A DNA stretch of 39,371 bases from a virus, in the IMG/VR virus record IMGVR_UViG_3300025769_000296, positions 1-39,371 of that record. The stretch is one strand, 5' to 3'. Position numbers and translations under genes: made by a program. Positions 5,298 through 23,035 of this stretch are shown here, piece by piece. Position 1 is the first letter of the stretch. The number at the start of each line of letters is the position of its first letter. The notes below the pieces were generated by a model. It was not told the origin of the DNA and made no database searches. It saw only the letters and a program-made list of their open reading frames with translations.

Positions 5298-6896
5298 TTA
5301 AAACGGATCGTTACCGTTGGTTGTTGTTGTTTTATCTTTGAATACATTCTCATCTTCCATGTACCTGCCACTGTCTTGATCGTAGTTCAAAGTAGTAGCT
5401 AGTCCAGTCTCACCTGAGAATCTATTCTTTAAGACTCTTACTTTTGTTTCGTTATTGTCTTCTTTTTGTTGGTTTCTCTCCAATCCTATTACCATATCAC
5501 TGAGTTGTGGTATCGAATGACTACCTCTCAGGTCTGATAACCTAGTGACTCCACCCTCTTCATGTCCTCCACCATTCGGTGGTCTTCTAAGGTGAGACAC
5601 TAACACCATTCCACATCCTGTCTCTTCCACTAAGCTCCTCAGTTGTGTCATCGTGTTATCAATTAACCTGCGTTCATCATCTCCTTGGATACCACTAACC
5701 ACAATAGATAGATGGTCAAGGAATATCCACTTACATCCTAATCCTTTGCACAGGTACTTGATCTTGCTTAACAAGTTATCACTCTCCGTACTTCCGAAGT
5801 GGTCATAGGTATAGAAGTTCTTGTTACCCATCGTCTCATCGAATGCTTGGCGTAACTCCTCCTCCTTCAAATCATTCTCTAAGTGCAACGGTTTATTCAG
5901 ATGAATGCCCATGATACCAAGTGCAGTTCTCCTTACCGATTCTTCCAGTGCTATGTATCCTACCGTCTCGCCAAGTCCAAGGAGATGGTGACAAACTTCA
6001 CGACAGAACAAGGACTTACCTATCCCTGATCCTGCACAAAGTGTCACCAACTCCCCTCTCCTCAGTCCGTGTGTCATGTTATTAAGTGAAGCATACGGAT
6101 AAGGCTGACATTCAGAAGTATCCTCCTTTATAACAGCTTGCCATATCTCCTCACCACTTACTATCCCATCAGGTCTGTACTCTCTAGCTTGCCACAGACA
6201 ATTCACCAACTCCTCGCTACGCTTTGCCACTAACATATCATTAGCATCCTTCAAAGGTAGTTCTGCAATGTACGCTTTACCAGGAGTCAGTAGTGCAGCA
6301 CATTTTGCTGCTCCATCTCTTCCTGGGTCATCGTTATCAAAGCAGAAGATTACCTTTTCAAAGGACTCTAACCAATCGATAGCTTGTGACACATACTTCT
6401 TTGCTCCACCTGCTCCGTTAGGTACAGATACTACAGCCCATTTGTTTCCGAAAGCTTGACTAACAGATAGTGCATCGATCTCTCCTTCACACACAACCAC
6501 TCTTCTTCCACCACTACTCCAAAGGTGCTGTCCATATAAGCCATACAGCTCTCCTTTGATTGAGAAAGTTTTGTTAGCGAATCGTAGTTTCTGTGCGACA
6601 AGTGCTCCGTTCCTACTCTTGTAGTTAGCAATGTGTACAGGTTCTCCGTTGTGCGTACCTATTTGATAGCCCCACTTCTGACAGGTCTCCTTAGTTAAGT
6701 TCCTCCTGGCAATCTCTTGTGCTTTACCTGTGAGAAAGGAGGTGTCGTTATTGGTTGTTGGTTGTGTCATAGTTTGTTGTCTGCCTCGACTGTATGTATC
6801 ACAGCTGAAACATTTTGTGCTTCCGTCTGTGTTGACTCCAAGAGCGTCACTCGATCCACACTTTGAACACTGCTGATGCGTACTAGTGAAAGCCAT
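5298..6896 (-). CDS. T7 gp4-like bifunctional primase-helicase
   Basis: This encodes 532 residues. A zinc-binding domain has Cys10-x2-Cys13 and Cys29-x2-Cys32. The Toprim core is VVVCEGEIDALS (E137, D141) with CFDNDDPGRDG (D187, D189). RecA-type hexameric helicase motifs follow: Walker A GSGIGKS (289-295), Walker B IFLDHLSIVV (391-400), then SHLRRP and LRGSHSIPQLSD. The acidic C-terminus ends in Phe, as in T7 gp4, where it contacts the polymerase. The first 130 bases overlap the endonuclease gene. Met43 (ATG at 6768-6770), just past the zinc finger, overlaps the endonuclease TGA, so a short form like T7 gp4B may be made. It unwinds DNA and primes lagging strands. Confidence 0.95.
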   Translation of the reverse strand: MAFTSTHQQCSKCGSSDALGVNTDGSTKCFSCDTYSRGRQQTMTQPTTNNDTSFLTGKAQEIARRNLTKETCQKWGYQIGTHNGEPVHIANYKSRNGALVAQKLRFANKTFSIKGELYGLYGQHLWSSGGRRVVVCEGEIDALSVSQAFGNKWAVVSVPNGAGGAKKYVSQAIDWLESFEKVIFCFDNDDPGRDGAAKCAALLTPGKAYIAELPLKDANDMLVAKRSEELVNCLWQAREYRPDGIVSGEEIWQAVIKEDTSECQPYPYASLNNMTHGLRRGELVTLCAGSGIGKSLFCREVCHHLLGLGETVGYIALEESVRRTALGIMGIHLNKPLHLENDLKEEELRQAFDETMGNKNFYTYDHFGSTESDNLLSKIKYLCKGLGCKWIFLDHLSIVVSGIQGDDERRLIDNTMTQLRSLVEETGCGMVLVSHLRRPPNGGGHEEGGVTRLSDLRGSHSIPQLSDMVIGLERNQQKEDNNETKVRVLKNRFSGETGLATTLNYDQDSGRYMEDENVFKDKTTTTNGNDPF

Positions 6897-7261
6897 GATT
6901 TTGGTATTTGTTTATGTGCATATAATATTCCTTTCTTTTCACACCACATTGCATAGGTAGTCTTACTACCCTTACGAATCTTGTTGTAAGCATTTTGAAA
7001 TAACAACCTAATATCTAAGTCAGGATGTTGTTGCTTGACTAACAGATGTTTTGTCCTGTCCTCCGTGACCCACCTCCCCTTGGTTTCAATAATGATTCCG
7101 TTGGGGAGGATGAAGTCAGGAGTGTAGGTACTTAGTTTCTTATACTCAATAACTAGTGATTCGTAAGAATACTTTATACCGTTCCGTCTGAGCTGTGATG
7201 CTATTCTCTCTTCAAATCCAGACCTAAAAGTCTGCTTTGATTTCTTCTTCGTCTTCGGCAT
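6767..7261 (-). CDS. T7 gp3-like endonuclease I (Holliday-junction resolvase)
   Basis: ATG 7261 (MPKTKKKSKQTFRSGFEERI) is chosen because T7 gp3 has a similarly short basic lead before FRSG; longer in-frame starts up to 7354 would only extend into the SSB gene. Catalytic residues are all present: Glu in RSGFEERI, Asp in TYTPDFILPNG, and Glu/Lys in IIIETKGRW. The KHLLVKQQHPDLDIRLLF and KIRKGSKTTYAMWCEKKGI segments also match the family. The family domain ends near IPKSWL (about base 6896); 43 more residues continue over the primase zinc-finger codons. It cleaves branched DNA and host DNA. The start lies inside the SSB gene (38-base overlap). Confidence 0.9.
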   Translation of the reverse strand: MPKTKKKSKQTFRSGFEERIASQLRRNGIKYSYESLVIEYKKLSTYTPDFILPNGIIIETKGRWVTEDRTKHLLVKQQHPDLDIRLLFQNAYNKIRKGSKTTYAMWCEKKGILYAHKQIPKSWLSLVRISSVQSVDRVTLLESTQTEAQNVSAVIHTVEADNKL

Positions 7262-7850
7262 CGAGTGCTTGGTCAAGTGTTTCCCCTCCGTTAACATAAC
7301 CCCCTTCAACTTCAGTAAAACCAAAGCTTTCAGCAGCTTGTTCAGATACTCCACCTTCAGCTAACTCGATAACTTGTAAAGCCATGATCTCAAGTGTGAT
7401 ACCCACTCCAAGCAACGGTGCAAACCAAACCTTCGGACGCAAGTTCAAGCGTACCTTTGAACCACCTCTTACAAGAACTGATTTATCCCAAGGGTTTCCT
7501 TTTGAATCAAACAATCCAATTGATCGAGTGTAACTAGTACCGTCCTTTCTTGTACCGTTCACTGGTTTCAACTTACTCTTTAACTTGTAAGTATCTCCAT
7601 CCAGCTCCAAAGGTAACTCGTAAGTCTTTACCTTCTTACCTAACTCCTTTGCTTTCTCAGCGTTTGCTTCCTCAAGAAGAGGTGTTAATTTAAGGATGAT
7701 TGCATCTCCTTCTTCCTTTGTTAATATAAGACCACAACTATACTCACCTTCTGGTACAAACTTTGTACTCGGTGTGTTAACCCAAGGGTAGTGTGCAGTA
7801 CCTATCGGTGTAGTGAATGCTTCCTGTTTCTCTCTCGTTTTATTCGCCAT
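7224..7850 (-). CDS. T7 gp2.5-like single-stranded DNA-binding protein
   Basis: This encodes 208 residues. It is recognised by position and by the hallmark acidic C-terminal tail ending in phenylalanine (ETLDQALDAEDEEEIKADF), which in T7 gp2.5 binds polymerase and helicase. The body contains KLRNL-type beta segments of an OB-fold (GSKVRLNLRPKVWFAP, then GVGITLEIMALQVIEL). Upstream of ATG 7850 lies a good Shine-Dalgarno stretch (AAGGAAGAG), stronger than for most genes here, fitting a protein needed in quantity. It coats ssDNA during replication and recombination. It follows RNA polymerase and overlaps the endonuclease gene. Confidence 0.85.
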   Translation of the reverse strand: MANKTREKQEAFTTPIGTAHYPWVNTPSTKFVPEGEYSCGLILTKEEGDAIILKLTPLLEEANAEKAKELGKKVKTYELPLELDGDTYKLKSKLKPVNGTRKDGTSYTRSIGLFDSKGNPWDKSVLVRGGSKVRLNLRPKVWFAPLLGVGITLEIMALQVIELAEGGVSEQAAESFGFTEVEGGYVNGGETLDQALDAEDEEEIKADF

Positions 7851-19710: not shown

Positions 19711-19953
19711 TTAACACTTCCACCTTCTAAGAGCTAAAGCTTTTCTAGTGGGTCTACCTTTACTATCTTTCATTGGTCCTTTGTTACCACTCATACGAGC
19801 ACAGAAGCTACGCTTTCTAGGACCACCACCAGGTTGAGGGGCTTTTAAGTTAGAACCTGTAGCTCTGTTATACTTAGCTCTTCCCTTTGCAGTGAGACCA
19901 CCTTTACGACTCTTCTCACCTCTACCTAGAGATAGTGATACACTCCTAGCCAT
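19711..19953 (-). CDS. Basic DUF6321-like protein of unknown function
   Basis: This encodes 80 residues from ATG 19953 (MARSVSLSLGRGEKSRKGGL), one base after the preceding stop; an in-frame start at 19974 would overlap the upstream gene. Motifs LTAKGRAKYNRATGSNLKAP, RKRSFCARMSGNKGPMKD and RPTRKALALRRW form a conserved, very basic, Gly-rich small protein found in many phages, which I associate with DUF6321. A nucleic-acid-binding role near packaging genes is inferred from charge. It lies between the lysis-like gene cluster and the small terminase. Confidence 0.7.
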   Translation of the reverse strand: MARSVSLSLGRGEKSRKGGLTAKGRAKYNRATGSNLKAPQPGGGPRKRSFCARMSGNKGPMKDSKGRPTRKALALRRWKC

Positions 19954-19954
19954 C

Positions 19955-20080
19955 TTACTTCTTTTTAAACCCACGCTTCATATTAGCGTATGACTGAGGT
20001 GATATAGTAGACTTCTTCTTGCTACGACTAATGCCTAGCTTTCTTCTTCTGTTTATGTTTGCGTATAATCCTTTTTTCAT
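19955..20080 (-). CDS. 41-residue highly basic peptide
   Basis: ATG 20080 overlaps the TGA of the membrane coiled-coil gene (ATGA). The product begins MKKGLYANINRRRKLGISRS and ends KKKSTISPQSYANMKRGFKK. It closely resembles small KKGLYANI-type peptides I recall from marine podophages. Over a third of residues are Lys or Arg, suggesting nucleic-acid binding. It pairs with the basic DUF6321-like gene that starts one base later. Confidence 0.65.
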   Translation of the reverse strand: MKKGLYANINRRRKLGISRSKKKSTISPQSYANMKRGFKKK

Positions 20081-20328
20081 TTTCTCATTAACATCTCCAT
20101 CATTCTATCTAGTTTACCGTTAATCTCTTTAACCGTAGTTTCAAGACCACTCATTCTATTCTCCACAGCAGTGTCTCGTTCTCTTTGGGTAGCAAGTTCT
20201 ACTTCAATCTTTGTTAATCGTTCTTCATCTTTATCCAATCGATCAGCAAACTTTTTTACTATCCAACCAAAGACACCAATTATAATCGCTAGTGCAGTGT
20301 CAAGAAAGTGTGATATTGTTTCAGTCAT
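20077..20328 (-). CDS. Membrane-anchored coiled-coil protein (holin or i-spanin candidate)
   Basis: This encodes 83 residues with one N-terminal transmembrane segment (FLDTALAIIIGVFGWIVKKF, about 8-27) and then a long charged heptad helix (ADRLDKDEERLTKIEVELAT onward) to the end. This topology fits an i-spanin (Rz-like) or a small holin-type protein; T7 has its holin (17.5) and Rz (18.5) in this same fibre-terminase interval. No Rz1-type partner is nested inside. The first codons lie in a 19-base repeat that is duplicated upstream at 21041-21059. Confidence 0.65.
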   Translation of the reverse strand: MTETISHFLDTALAIIIGVFGWIVKKFADRLDKDEERLTKIEVELATQRERDTAVENRMSGLETTVKEINGKLDRMMEMLMRK

Positions 20329-20338
20329 TGTGTGTTAA
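20320..20338. repeat. 19-base direct repeat, copy 1
   Basis: The sequence TTCAGTCATTGTGTGTTAA is identical to 21041-21059. On the minus strand it carries the stop of the fibre-like gene and the first codons (ATG ACT GAA) of the membrane coiled-coil gene. The two copies bracket the 230-residue fibre-like gene exactly, as if it had been inserted or duplicated by recombination. Confidence 0.85.
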
Positions 20339-21027
20339 GTTGATATAGTTGCTCCTGGGGTTGCCAATACTTTCCAAGAACCACCTGATCCAGCCACTCC
20401 TGTGTACATCGCTAGACAAATAGAACCAGAGTTTCCATTAGATACAACTGCAACTTGACCCTCTAGAGCACCATCTGCTGCTGTTAAAGCATTCATTTCT
20501 GCTACTGTACCACCTGCTAAAGTTATGTTTCTACCAAACACTGCAAAAGCTTGGGTACTAGGTGCATCTTGAAAACCAAACCTTAATGCTTTTGCGTTAA
20601 GGGACATAGCAATTTCCGTAGGAGTACCTGCCTCATCTGTATCTTCAAAGAATAATTGAGTAGCAGTTCCTTTAAGTTTTACCTTTGTTGCAGTTAGATC
20701 GTACCCTGTTTCATTTAAAGTGCCTATACCTACACCACCGTTAGAATAGTTTAACTCAGTATCTGTAGCACTTATCTTAGCAGCTGTAACAACACCGTCT
20801 GAAAGCGTAAGAGTAGTTGCACCTGTAACATCCCCTGTATGCGTAGCATTTGTAACCTTTGCTGTGTTAGCTGCAACAGCAGCATTTGAAGCTACATCTG
20901 AATCTGTAATGTAATTAGCACCGTTAGTAAGTTGATTATTGTTTGTAGGTACTGAAGCTGCTGTAGCGTAAGTTGAACCAGCGTCCAAATCGCTAATCAT
21001 ATTAGAGTTTGTTTTTGTAATAGCCAT
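20335..21027 (-). CDS. Second tail-fibre-like or tail-associated protein
   Basis: This encodes 230 residues. The N-terminus (MAITKTNSNMISDLDAGSTY) is followed by a repeat-type segment AANTAKVTNATHTGDVTGAT (about 53-72) nearly identical to one in the main fibre, then TLTLSDGVVTAAKISATDTE and beta-rich sequence with a Gly/Ser-rich end (YTGVAGSGGSWKVLATPGAT). There is no chaperone domain, so trimerisation would have to come from the partner or another region. It may be an accessory fibre, short spike or fibre-tip protein. It is flanked by perfect 19-base repeats, suggesting acquisition as a cassette. Confidence 0.7.
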   Translation of the reverse strand: MAITKTNSNMISDLDAGSTYATAASVPTNNNQLTNGANYITDSDVASNAAVAANTAKVTNATHTGDVTGATTLTLSDGVVTAAKISATDTELNYSNGGVGIGTLNETGYDLTATKVKLKGTATQLFFEDTDEAGTPTEIAMSLNAKALRFGFQDAPSTQAFAVFGRNITLAGGTVAEMNALTAADGALEGQVAVVSNGNSGSICLAMYTGVAGSGGSWKVLATPGATIST

Positions 21028-21040
21028 AGTTTTAAAGTTG

Positions 21041-21059
21041 TTCAGTCATTGTGTGTTAA
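21041..21059. repeat. 19-base direct repeat, copy 2 (with vestigial start)
   Basis: This copy is identical to 20320-20338. On the minus strand it holds the main fibre stop TAA and then ATG ACT GAA CAA CTT TAA, a five-codon remnant that copies the start of the membrane coiled-coil gene. This implies that the coiled-coil gene once followed the fibre directly and was displaced when the 230-residue gene entered. Confidence 0.8.
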
Positions 21060-23035
21060 AGTGCTGAGATGATAAAAGCAAGTAACTCAGAATATCGCAC
21101 AGACATTTCTGTTACCTCTGAATATCCTTCTTGCTCCTCATTGGATACTGACCTTTTACCATCTACTGTTTTCTCCCACCAAGTATTCTCAGCTATTATA
21201 CCATACCGCATTGGATCGAGTCCCTCTGCTTGAAACGCTCCTTGTAACTCTTGAGCTATGATTCCGAAGTGATACCTTGCATTTGACCCTTTTTCTTCAA
21301 CTGCTTTTTTAAGTCTGTATTTTTTAAGAAGACCTTTTGCAGTTACAGCTACTTTTTTTTCTGCTTCGCTAAGTTCTTCGATGTCCTGTTTTAAATTTAA
21401 ATCAGAACCATTAAAAGCACCTGTAGACGAATATACATCTTGCCATTGTAAACTAGATTTACCTAAATCATCTTGTGCAGTTGTGTTTGGGAAAAGACTA
21501 CCACTAAACGAAATATCACCATTAGCGGCAAAAGCGGTTGGGTAACTAGTTGCTGTTCCTTTAAAAATTCTGCATACTTTAGCGTCAATACCGTGGTTGT
21601 GGATATTACCAGTATCTTTAAAAGTATCTAATAGAAAGGACTGACTCTCATCAATAACAGGTGAGTTAACGCCAGGTTCATTGAGGTAGAGTTGTCCACC
21701 TTCTGTTGATGAACTTGAATCATACAGTACGATGTTAGTTGATTTAATTACAACTCCATCAGCAATCTTTGCAGTAGTTATTGCATCGTCTGCTATCGTC
21801 AGTGTAGCATCTCCTGTAACATCTCCTGTGTGTGTAGCGTTAGATACCTTAGCTGTGTTAGCAGTAACAGCAGAGTTATTAGCTACCTCAGTATCAAAGT
21901 CAGATATAGTTGAAGCAAGTTGAGTACCTGTGTGATTAGCTCTGTTCTTTAAGTTAGCGTCTGAATCATTCGCTGTAGAACCATCTGCTACATTTAAAAC
22001 CGTCCTTACTTCAGTCGATGTCAAAGCTTGCGGAGCAGCACTACTACCACTATCGTTACCTAGTAAAGTGTTATTGGCAATATTCTCGATGCTAGATAAG
22101 GTAAGACCAGCTGAAACAGGAACTGAGTAACCTCTTTGTATAACAACAATGTTAGAAGTGTTAGGAGGAGCACTAGTAAAAGTAATTGTGTTTGCTGTAG
22201 AATCTATGGCATAGGCAACGGTAGGTTCTTGCATTACACCATCAATAGCTACTTCATACATTGTATCACCGTTTAAATCAATCCCTGGACTAAATGTAAA
22301 AGCAGTTGTAGAACCATTACCTGCAAAAGTGTATTTAGACGAAGCAGTAGAAGACCCTGTTATTTGATTGGATATTTGTTGGTTAACATAAGCTTCAGAA
22401 GCCCCAGAGAAAGATAGACTATCAGCGTATGATTTATTTACCGCATCAGTTGTTGCTGTGGGAGTAGCTAGACCTGTGATCTTATTGTTCCCCATTGCTA
22501 ACGCACCAGTCATAGAGTCCCCAGTCTTGGTAACTTGTAGAGCATCTTGTGTGTCCACATAGTTCTTAGTGGCAGCATCCTGTGCAAGAGTAGGATCAGC
22601 TACATCAACTATCTTAGCTAAGTCAGCTTCAAAGTTACCTGCACTGTTCTTAGTCATTACATTCTTACCACTACCTTCTTCTATCTCTTCGTTAAGATAT
22701 AAGTTGTGTAAGTAAGCACGGTCTAGTTCTACTTCAGTAAGTACACTACCGTTTTCAAAGTCTACTAGAGCAGTATCAGATGCACTGTCTCTTTTAATTC
22801 TTATCCTGTCAGCTGAAGCAGGTGCAGATACAAACCTGATAAGCTTAGAAGGAGAGGTTACTATTGTATAGTCTGTGGTTAAAGCTTTAGTAACAAAAGC
22901 ACCACCTGGTACACTCGCTTGATCTACTTGTACAACAATGTGAGAGTCATCAAGATAAGGAAATGAAAAAGCGAAATCTTTGTTGTCAGTACCTGTTCCG
23001 TCAGCACCTGTGTAATCTACGAATGTATTAGCCAT
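21056..23035 (-). CDS. Tail fibre with T7 gp17-like N-terminus and S74 intramolecular chaperone
   Basis: This encodes 659 residues. The N-terminal ~130 (FVDYTGADGTGTDNKDFAFS, then RIRIKRDSASDTALVDFENG and LTEVELDRAYLHNLYLNEEI) match the T7 gp17 tail-attachment domain. The middle has phage-tail repeats (ANHTGTQ, NATHTGDVTGD). The C-terminal ~115 is a peptidase S74 chaperone: FNGSDLNLKQDIEEL (Ser544-Asp545, Lys549), YHFGIIAQEL, ending SVRYSELLAFIISAL. Such domains trimerise the fibre and cut themselves off at the Ser. It binds the host receptor. The shared NATHTGDVTG module links it to the next gene. Confidence 0.9.
   Translation of the reverse strand: MANTFVDYTGADGTGTDNKDFAFSFPYLDDSHIVVQVDQASVPGGAFVTKALTTDYTIVTSPSKLIRFVSAPASADRIRIKRDSASDTALVDFENGSVLTEVELDRAYLHNLYLNEEIEEGSGKNVMTKNSAGNFEADLAKIVDVADPTLAQDAATKNYVDTQDALQVTKTGDSMTGALAMGNNKITGLATPTATTDAVNKSYADSLSFSGASEAYVNQQISNQITGSSTASSKYTFAGNGSTTAFTFSPGIDLNGDTMYEVAIDGVMQEPTVAYAIDSTANTITFTSAPPNTSNIVVIQRGYSVPVSAGLTLSSIENIANNTLLGNDSGSSAAPQALTSTEVRTVLNVADGSTANDSDANLKNRANHTGTQLASTISDFDTEVANNSAVTANTAKVSNATHTGDVTGDATLTIADDAITTAKIADGVVIKSTNIVLYDSSSSTEGGQLYLNEPGVNSPVIDESQSFLLDTFKDTGNIHNHGIDAKVCRIFKGTATSYPTAFAANGDISFSGSLFPNTTAQDDLGKSSLQWQDVYSSTGAFNGSDLNLKQDIEELSEAEKKVAVTAKGLLKKYRLKKAVEEKGSNARYHFGIIAQELQGAFQAEGLDPMRYGIIAENTWWEKTVDGKRSVSNEEQEGYSEVTEMSVRYSELLAFIISAL

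Follow-up and report, generated by a model that had tools for sequence, protein, structure and literature searches.

A truncated foreign gene start ahead of a second fibre-like gene in an uncultured T7-like phage: a probable scar of a join between a one-fibre and a two-fibre phage

Among the closest described systems is a T3/T7 recombinant phage whose crossover falls in an 8-bp stretch of fibre gene 17, and for which models have been put forward that combine cleavage by endonuclease I, non-equivalent sites included, with annealing (PMC3276506). In temperate phages, phage-borne annealing recombinases are described as driving mosaicism by relaxed homologous recombination, fibre genes such as those of the stf/tfa side-tail-fibre regions included (PMC3945230), and a survey of receptor-binding proteins reports conserved N-termini combined with other domains that are variable and shuffled (PMC10684548).

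The locus analyzed here lies on a viral record 39,371 bases long, the whole of which is referred to below as the window. The phage is a T7-like podovirus (Autographiviridae-like), as it encodes a single-subunit RNA polymerase (phrog_414, E=2.5e-172), a T7-type terminase (PF22530) and a fibre with the T7 tail-fibre N-terminus (PF03906); a DNA polymerase and a helicase are also encoded. Its TerL is closest to those of uncultured phage MedDCM-OCT-S45-C18 (Ayaqvirus; 64.9%) and Roseobacter phage CRP-171 (61.2%) and, judged by these closest terminase relatives, the phage belongs to an uncultured T7-like clade that is presumably marine. Neither a megablast search of 24 kb nor a tblastn search with the 83-aa and 230-aa proteins described below gave a match among named phages, and the junction comparison was therefore made without any named relative.

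The two fibre genes, the 83-aa gene and the repeat copies are all on the minus strand. The main tail-fibre gene, F1 (21056-23035), encodes a 659-aa protein that combines a T7 tail-fibre N-terminal domain (PF03906, E=1e-24, residues 1-162) with a Peptidase_S74 tip of the endosialidase-chaperone type (PF13884, E=3.4e-9, residues 544-605). It is followed by a second fibre-like gene of 230 aa, S (20335-21027), which has the N-terminal module MAITKTNSNMISDLDAGSTY, a shaft motif in common with F1 and a tip ending KVLATPGATIST; its shaft segment at 20774-20904 is 73% identical over 131 nt to positions 21765-21895 of F1 (family D1). Next comes an 83-aa gene (20077-20328), located between the fibre genes and the terminase and by position a probable holin, with weak matches to PHROG holins (phrog_1296, E=0.0016, among them). 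We take the T7 gp17.5 holin to be its positional counterpart. A gene for a DUF6321 protein (19711-19974) lies between the 83-aa gene and that of the terminase small subunit.

The sequence TTCAGTCATTGTGTGTTAA is present exactly twice in the window, at 20320-20338 and 21041-21059, with one gene in between, which confirms the perfect 19-base direct repeats reported in a preliminary description of this DNA; no other match was found in the window, even with three mismatches allowed. Dinucleotide shuffles gave an expectation of 0.01 matches, and two matches were reached in 0 of 100 shuffles; with so low an expectation a chance origin of the pair was set aside. The pair can be extended to 32 nt at 81% identity, strong identity ending at about 19 nt. 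Read on the coding strand, the repeat is TTAACACACAATGACTGAA, in which a stop and a spacer are followed by the three codons that open the 83-aa gene. The downstream copy thus holds the stop of S, a spacer and the start of the live 83-aa gene, and the upstream copy the stop of F1, the spacer CACACA and a vestigial ATGACTGAA. The latter runs on as ATGACTGAACAACTTTAA from 21049 to 21032 to form the ORF MTEQL*, which terminates 4 nt ahead of the S ATG, in agreement with the earlier statement that each copy spans an upstream stop and the first codons of MTE and that the upstream one encodes just five codons. Beyond the common MTE the alleles of the two copies differ, being MTEQL in the vestige and MTETI (MTETISHF...) in the live gene, and this difference decides the origin of the vestige. 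Compared over 14 nt, ATGACTGAACAACT agrees throughout (0 mismatches) with the allele found in relatives L023, L043 and L045 and differs at 3 positions from that of the window itself; the vestige is what remains of an 83-aa allele foreign to the window.

In viral contigs 204 relatives of the 83-aa gene were found, of which 80 were kept. Itself conserved, it forms the right-hand anchor of a variable region, the sequence preceding it being highly variable. A set of 114 distinct segments from the F1 start to the 83-aa gene, biased in that S had served as a query, contained 67 with F1 alone, 30 with F1 and S (start MAIT) and 17 with other genes in this interval, no fewer than 5 of them resembling S with a mis-called start. 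In the subset of 53 loci fetched with the 83-aa protein alone these numbers were 35, 15 and 3, respectively. Three genes are present in the region of eight loci (L199, L205, L210, L214, L221, L226, L230 and L231), which have a different split-fibre layout: first a short fibre gene that terminates in ..YGGIA or a similar sequence, then a gene of 181-207 aa with the ending ..TTLDFGS.., and lastly a tip gene.

Relatives with a single copy of the repeat, which the preliminary description had proposed to look for, were found: L084, L085 and L086 each contain one exact copy of the 19-mer. In L085, which is the same contig as L023, L099 and L180, it follows an S74 tip, and in L086 and L084 an S-type tip. 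The repeat is perfect because the same leader pre-exists on both sides. The event did not copy the leader, which is the one that ordinarily precedes the 83-aa gene among relatives on either side. The alternative that had been envisaged, a leader copied many times elsewhere, holds to the extent that the leader is conserved, but apart from the relics it occurs once per genome. Two copies each are present in L083 and L087, which are 99.7% (over 4342 nt) and 99.99% (over 8801 nt) identical to the window. These two are also the only contigs in which the junction with S was found, and the exact 721-base deletion product expected from excision across the repeat was not found in viral_contigs, an absence that is weak evidence; a deletion-product pattern with one alternative base matched L013 only, a diverged relative. 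Excision, which would restore the one-fibre layout, is thus possible in principle, and its earlier proposal is so far unsupported, both near-identical contigs having kept their two copies.

The window junction can be rebuilt from two other phages. In L180/L023 an S74-tipped fibre is followed directly by the live 83-aa gene, TTAACACACAATGACTGAACAACTCTCACAC, and the S-carrying L091/L003 have a sequence ahead of S that ends AACTTTAAAACTATGGCTATTAC. The 57-nt window junction is identical to L023 up to nt 30 and to L003 thereafter, with 0 mismatches, whereas 15 shuffled controls had a minimum of 19 mismatches (mean 20.8) and the best single S upstream needs 23. L023 and L003 were the best pair among 111 x 39 candidate junctions and, being uncultured contigs, stand as proxies for the parents. 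L180 and L091, joined at the microhomology AACT, also reproduce the junction with zero mismatches. The probable crossover point is accordingly placed at this 4-nt stretch (21036-21039), common to both presumed parents; a 4-nt microhomology is found at 2.9% of random joins, and AACT is thus suggestive only. To the left of the vestige the sequence runs collinear with that of other phages, where this tip adjoins a live 83-aa gene: alignment of left flank plus vestige to the live start gave 90.6% for the window with L092, and 95.4%, 89.7% and 94.2% for the pairs L017-L116, L043-L104 and L143-L081, respectively. In the two-fibre proxy L091/L003 the 83-aa gene has a different leader in place of the 19-nt one, and the S tip is also different; one or more additional exchanges on the S side, with an L086-like lineage, would therefore be needed. 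The direction and order of events proposed below are inferred. Our preferred reading, to which we assign a probability of about 0.85, is that the 19-nt pair is the scar of a join between a one-fibre and a two-fibre phage at a 4-nt microhomology, and not of a duplication.

Relics of the 83-aa start recur ahead of S at other loci. A weight matrix built from 64 alleles of this start was run on the 80 nt ahead of S, upstreams shorter than 80 nt and matches without a start codon being left out, which gave 39 distinct upstreams (a slightly different filter gave 41 distinct starts). At a threshold of at least 8 bits, relics were found in 7 of these 39, against 0/39 when the upstreams were reversed and 0/39 when they were reverse-complemented. 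After clustering at 90% identity they were present in 7 of 35 S clusters at this loose threshold (shuffle mean 0.88, maximum 3; another shuffle run, mean 0.875, maximum 5), in 5 at the strict threshold of at least 11 bits (mean 0.18, maximum 1) and in 4 at 14 bits or more (mean 0.07, maximum 1). When the starts of DUF6321, TerS, TerL and F1 were used as controls on the same 35 upstreams, 2, 0, 1 and 0 matches, respectively, were obtained at 8 bits or more, and 1, 0, 0 and 0 at 11 bits or more. Conversely, the 83-aa matrix gave 0/106 matches upstream of these four genes (6, 26, 22 and 52 upstreams, respectively). A scan of the whole F1-to-83-aa region at 11 bits (119 loci, 244,662 bases) showed no excess, with 15 matches in the sense orientation, 24 in reversed and 16 in reverse-complemented sequence, and the relic signal is therefore specific to the gap before S.

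The relic is nearer to a foreign allele than to the locus's own in 6 of 8 scars (the window, L267, L024, L043, L143 and L272), and tied in the other two (L017 and L020). For 13 of the 35 S clusters a relative exists in which a similar F1 tip adjoins a live 83-aa start, and a relic is present in 4 of those 13. Two-parent rebuilding left 6/71 mismatches for L017 and 7/56 for L043, with shuffled minima of 24 and 17, respectively; from known parents it was poor for L024 (18/78), L267 (37/105) and L020 (14/70). At the L024 join the stretch common to both sides is CAATATCA, of 8 nt. A different type of scar is present at the same place in the one-fibre relative L143 (2505-2640), where a stranded 45-nt 83-aa start has 1 mismatch to a foreign and 12 to its own allele and, after it, the terminal part of the fibre tip of L143 is repeated.

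Other origins of the pair have to be weighed against the join. The preliminary description had offered a cassette inserted, or tandemly duplicated, at the fibre 3' end. Duplication in place of the fibre end together with the 83-aa start, S being a diverged fibre copy, would account for copies that are perfect over 19 nt and for the 131-nt shaft segment that F1 and S have in common at 73%, and L143 demonstrates that a stranded start beside a repeated tip end can arise. Such a duplication should leave the same allele in both copies, but the vestige is of a foreign one (0 versus 3 mismatches; MTEQL versus MTETI), as is the stranded start even in L143 (1 versus 12). S moreover has its own N-terminal module, seen in 35 locus clusters, and its tip does not resemble the S74 one on F1; two other phages suffice to rebuild the junction exactly. 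Allele identity thus largely refutes tandem duplication, which we consider very improbable. What stands of the earlier interpretation is the vestigial start and a footprint of insertion or recombination at the fibre 3' end; its duplication variant is contradicted by the foreign-allele vestige and the collinear left flank.

Even less credible is a mobile cassette integrated by a site-specific or transposase mechanism with duplication of its target site. One gene between short perfect direct repeats is what such an element would produce, but the duplications should then be of constant length, and the relics elsewhere vary in sequence, in length and in where they end; no same-length duplications at unrelated targets were seen around S. 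Furthermore, the repeat is the 83-aa leader that pre-exists in one-copy relatives, and S is all that lies between the copies, with no integrase or transposase there. The vestige might instead be retained as a functional short leader ORF from which ribosomes would be passed to S by re-initiation, given that it ends 4 nt ahead of the S ATG and that S has no Shine-Dalgarno-like motif. This motif is, however, absent in 17 of the 23 window genes looked at, S included, relics of this kind are missing from 28 of the 35 S clusters even when the loose threshold is applied, and the relics of L024 and L020 have lost their start codon (ATT and ATA, respectively), so that we regard a role of this kind as quite improbable.

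The 230-aa S protein matched no Pfam or PHROG family, and AlphaFold gave a poor model of it (mean pLDDT of 47). Common to S genes is an N-terminal module of 20 residues, MAITxTxSxMxxDxDAGSTY (window 20926-21027 and 52 loci; 12 invariant positions in 13 sequences), which is perhaps a virion attachment peptide; in CRP-171 neither of the two genes after the fibre gene starts with it. The S tip corresponds to the C-terminal end of a T7-tail-type F1 in relatives, and the C-terminal part of S is about 70-90% identical to the F1 C-terminal end of other loci, or to another S; tips therefore seem to travel between the positions of F1 and S. We infer that S is a virion fibre. The backbone-nearest relative, L090/L011 (one contig), which is 98% identical to the window over 658 nt at the F1 start and 98-100% in 100-nt bins downstream of the 83-aa start, has a single fibre gene, an F1 that ends in an S-type tip. 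In the window the S74 tip is on F1, and S carries the type of tip that ends F1 in L090. The body of the F1 tip of the window aligns over a greater length with L092/L095 than with L023/L180, and F1 itself is therefore mosaic.

For the join of two parents we propose the following course. Parent 1 would have been a one-fibre phage in which an S74-tipped F1 was followed directly by an MTEQL-type 83-aa gene, and it would have been joined just inside its 83-aa start, at the 4-nt microhomology, to a two-fibre phage just upstream of S. The recombinant would have retained the F1 tip and stop of parent 1 and acquired S, while the live 83-aa gene remained downstream of S, with the first 83-aa codons of parent 1 left stranded as MTEQL*. 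As selection would demand that the F1 stop and the S start both stay intact, only joins within the short gap would be viable, and a further tip exchange would have taken place on the S side. Strand annealing at the microhomology may have involved three candidate recombination factors that the phage encodes, also on the minus strand: a gp2.5-like ssDNA-binding and annealing protein (7224-7850; phrog_112, E=6.4e-23), an endonuclease of the T7 endonuclease I/resolvase type (6767-7354; phrog_945, E=3.8e-51) and an exonuclease (2048-2968; phrog_107, E=1.1e-65). The best reading of the locus from sequence comparison is that an optional second fibre gene was gained by short-homology recombination.

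Stranded 83-aa starts could in addition act as docking sites, that is, as reusable anchors for swaps of receptor-binding tips during which the second fibre is kept. A one-fibre relative would then donate a new F1 tip via homology of its live start to the relic between F1 and S. As this idea predicts, the window and L043 have the same right-hand junction, AACTTTAAAA, and different F1 tips. These two cases do not separate docking sites from repeated use of one microhomology, and we consider the idea unlikely. Read as the scar of a two-parent join, the pair would be a nucleotide-level record of a marine T7-like lineage gaining a second receptor-binding-type gene by an imprecise join. Such scars would allow gains of fibre genes to be counted from metagenomes without isolates, and they bear on whether phage mosaicism arises from homology or from random joining.

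None of the titles retrieved in a literature search describes such scars, which is no proof of their absence from print. The kind of process is already known, and the new details are the recurrent stranded start and the pool of tips that F1 and S have in common. Compared with the accessible part of the temperate-phage report, the window would likewise owe the mosaicism of its fibre genes to phage-borne annealing; relaxed recombination as described there concerns temperate phages and needs stretches of partial homology, and that part does not mention a scar in a neighbouring gene (PMC3945230). The receptor-binding protein study, as far as its accessible text goes, has in common with this locus the conserved N-termini and shuffled other domains; it is a domain-level survey that leaves the genetic process open, whereas the window junction is resolved at the nucleotide level (PMC10684548). 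As in a T3/7-type recombinant, the window junction resolves into two (proxy) parental sequences at a short common stretch (0 mismatches, AACT), and endonuclease I, an exonuclease and a gp2.5-type annealing protein are phage-encoded, their part in the window join being presumed. According to the available sections of the T3/7 report, that case too concerns a T7-type phage whose fibre region was exchanged via very short homology (8 bp in T3/7), with endonuclease I and gp2.5-type strand annealing proposed, and the exchanged part extends from gene 17 into 18.5, nearly the same part of the genome as in the window (PMC3276506). The T3/7 exchange described there is an allelic swap of equivalent genes, whereas in the window non-equivalent sites appear to have been joined, giving an extra fibre gene and leaving behind the truncated start of a neighbour (PMC3276506).
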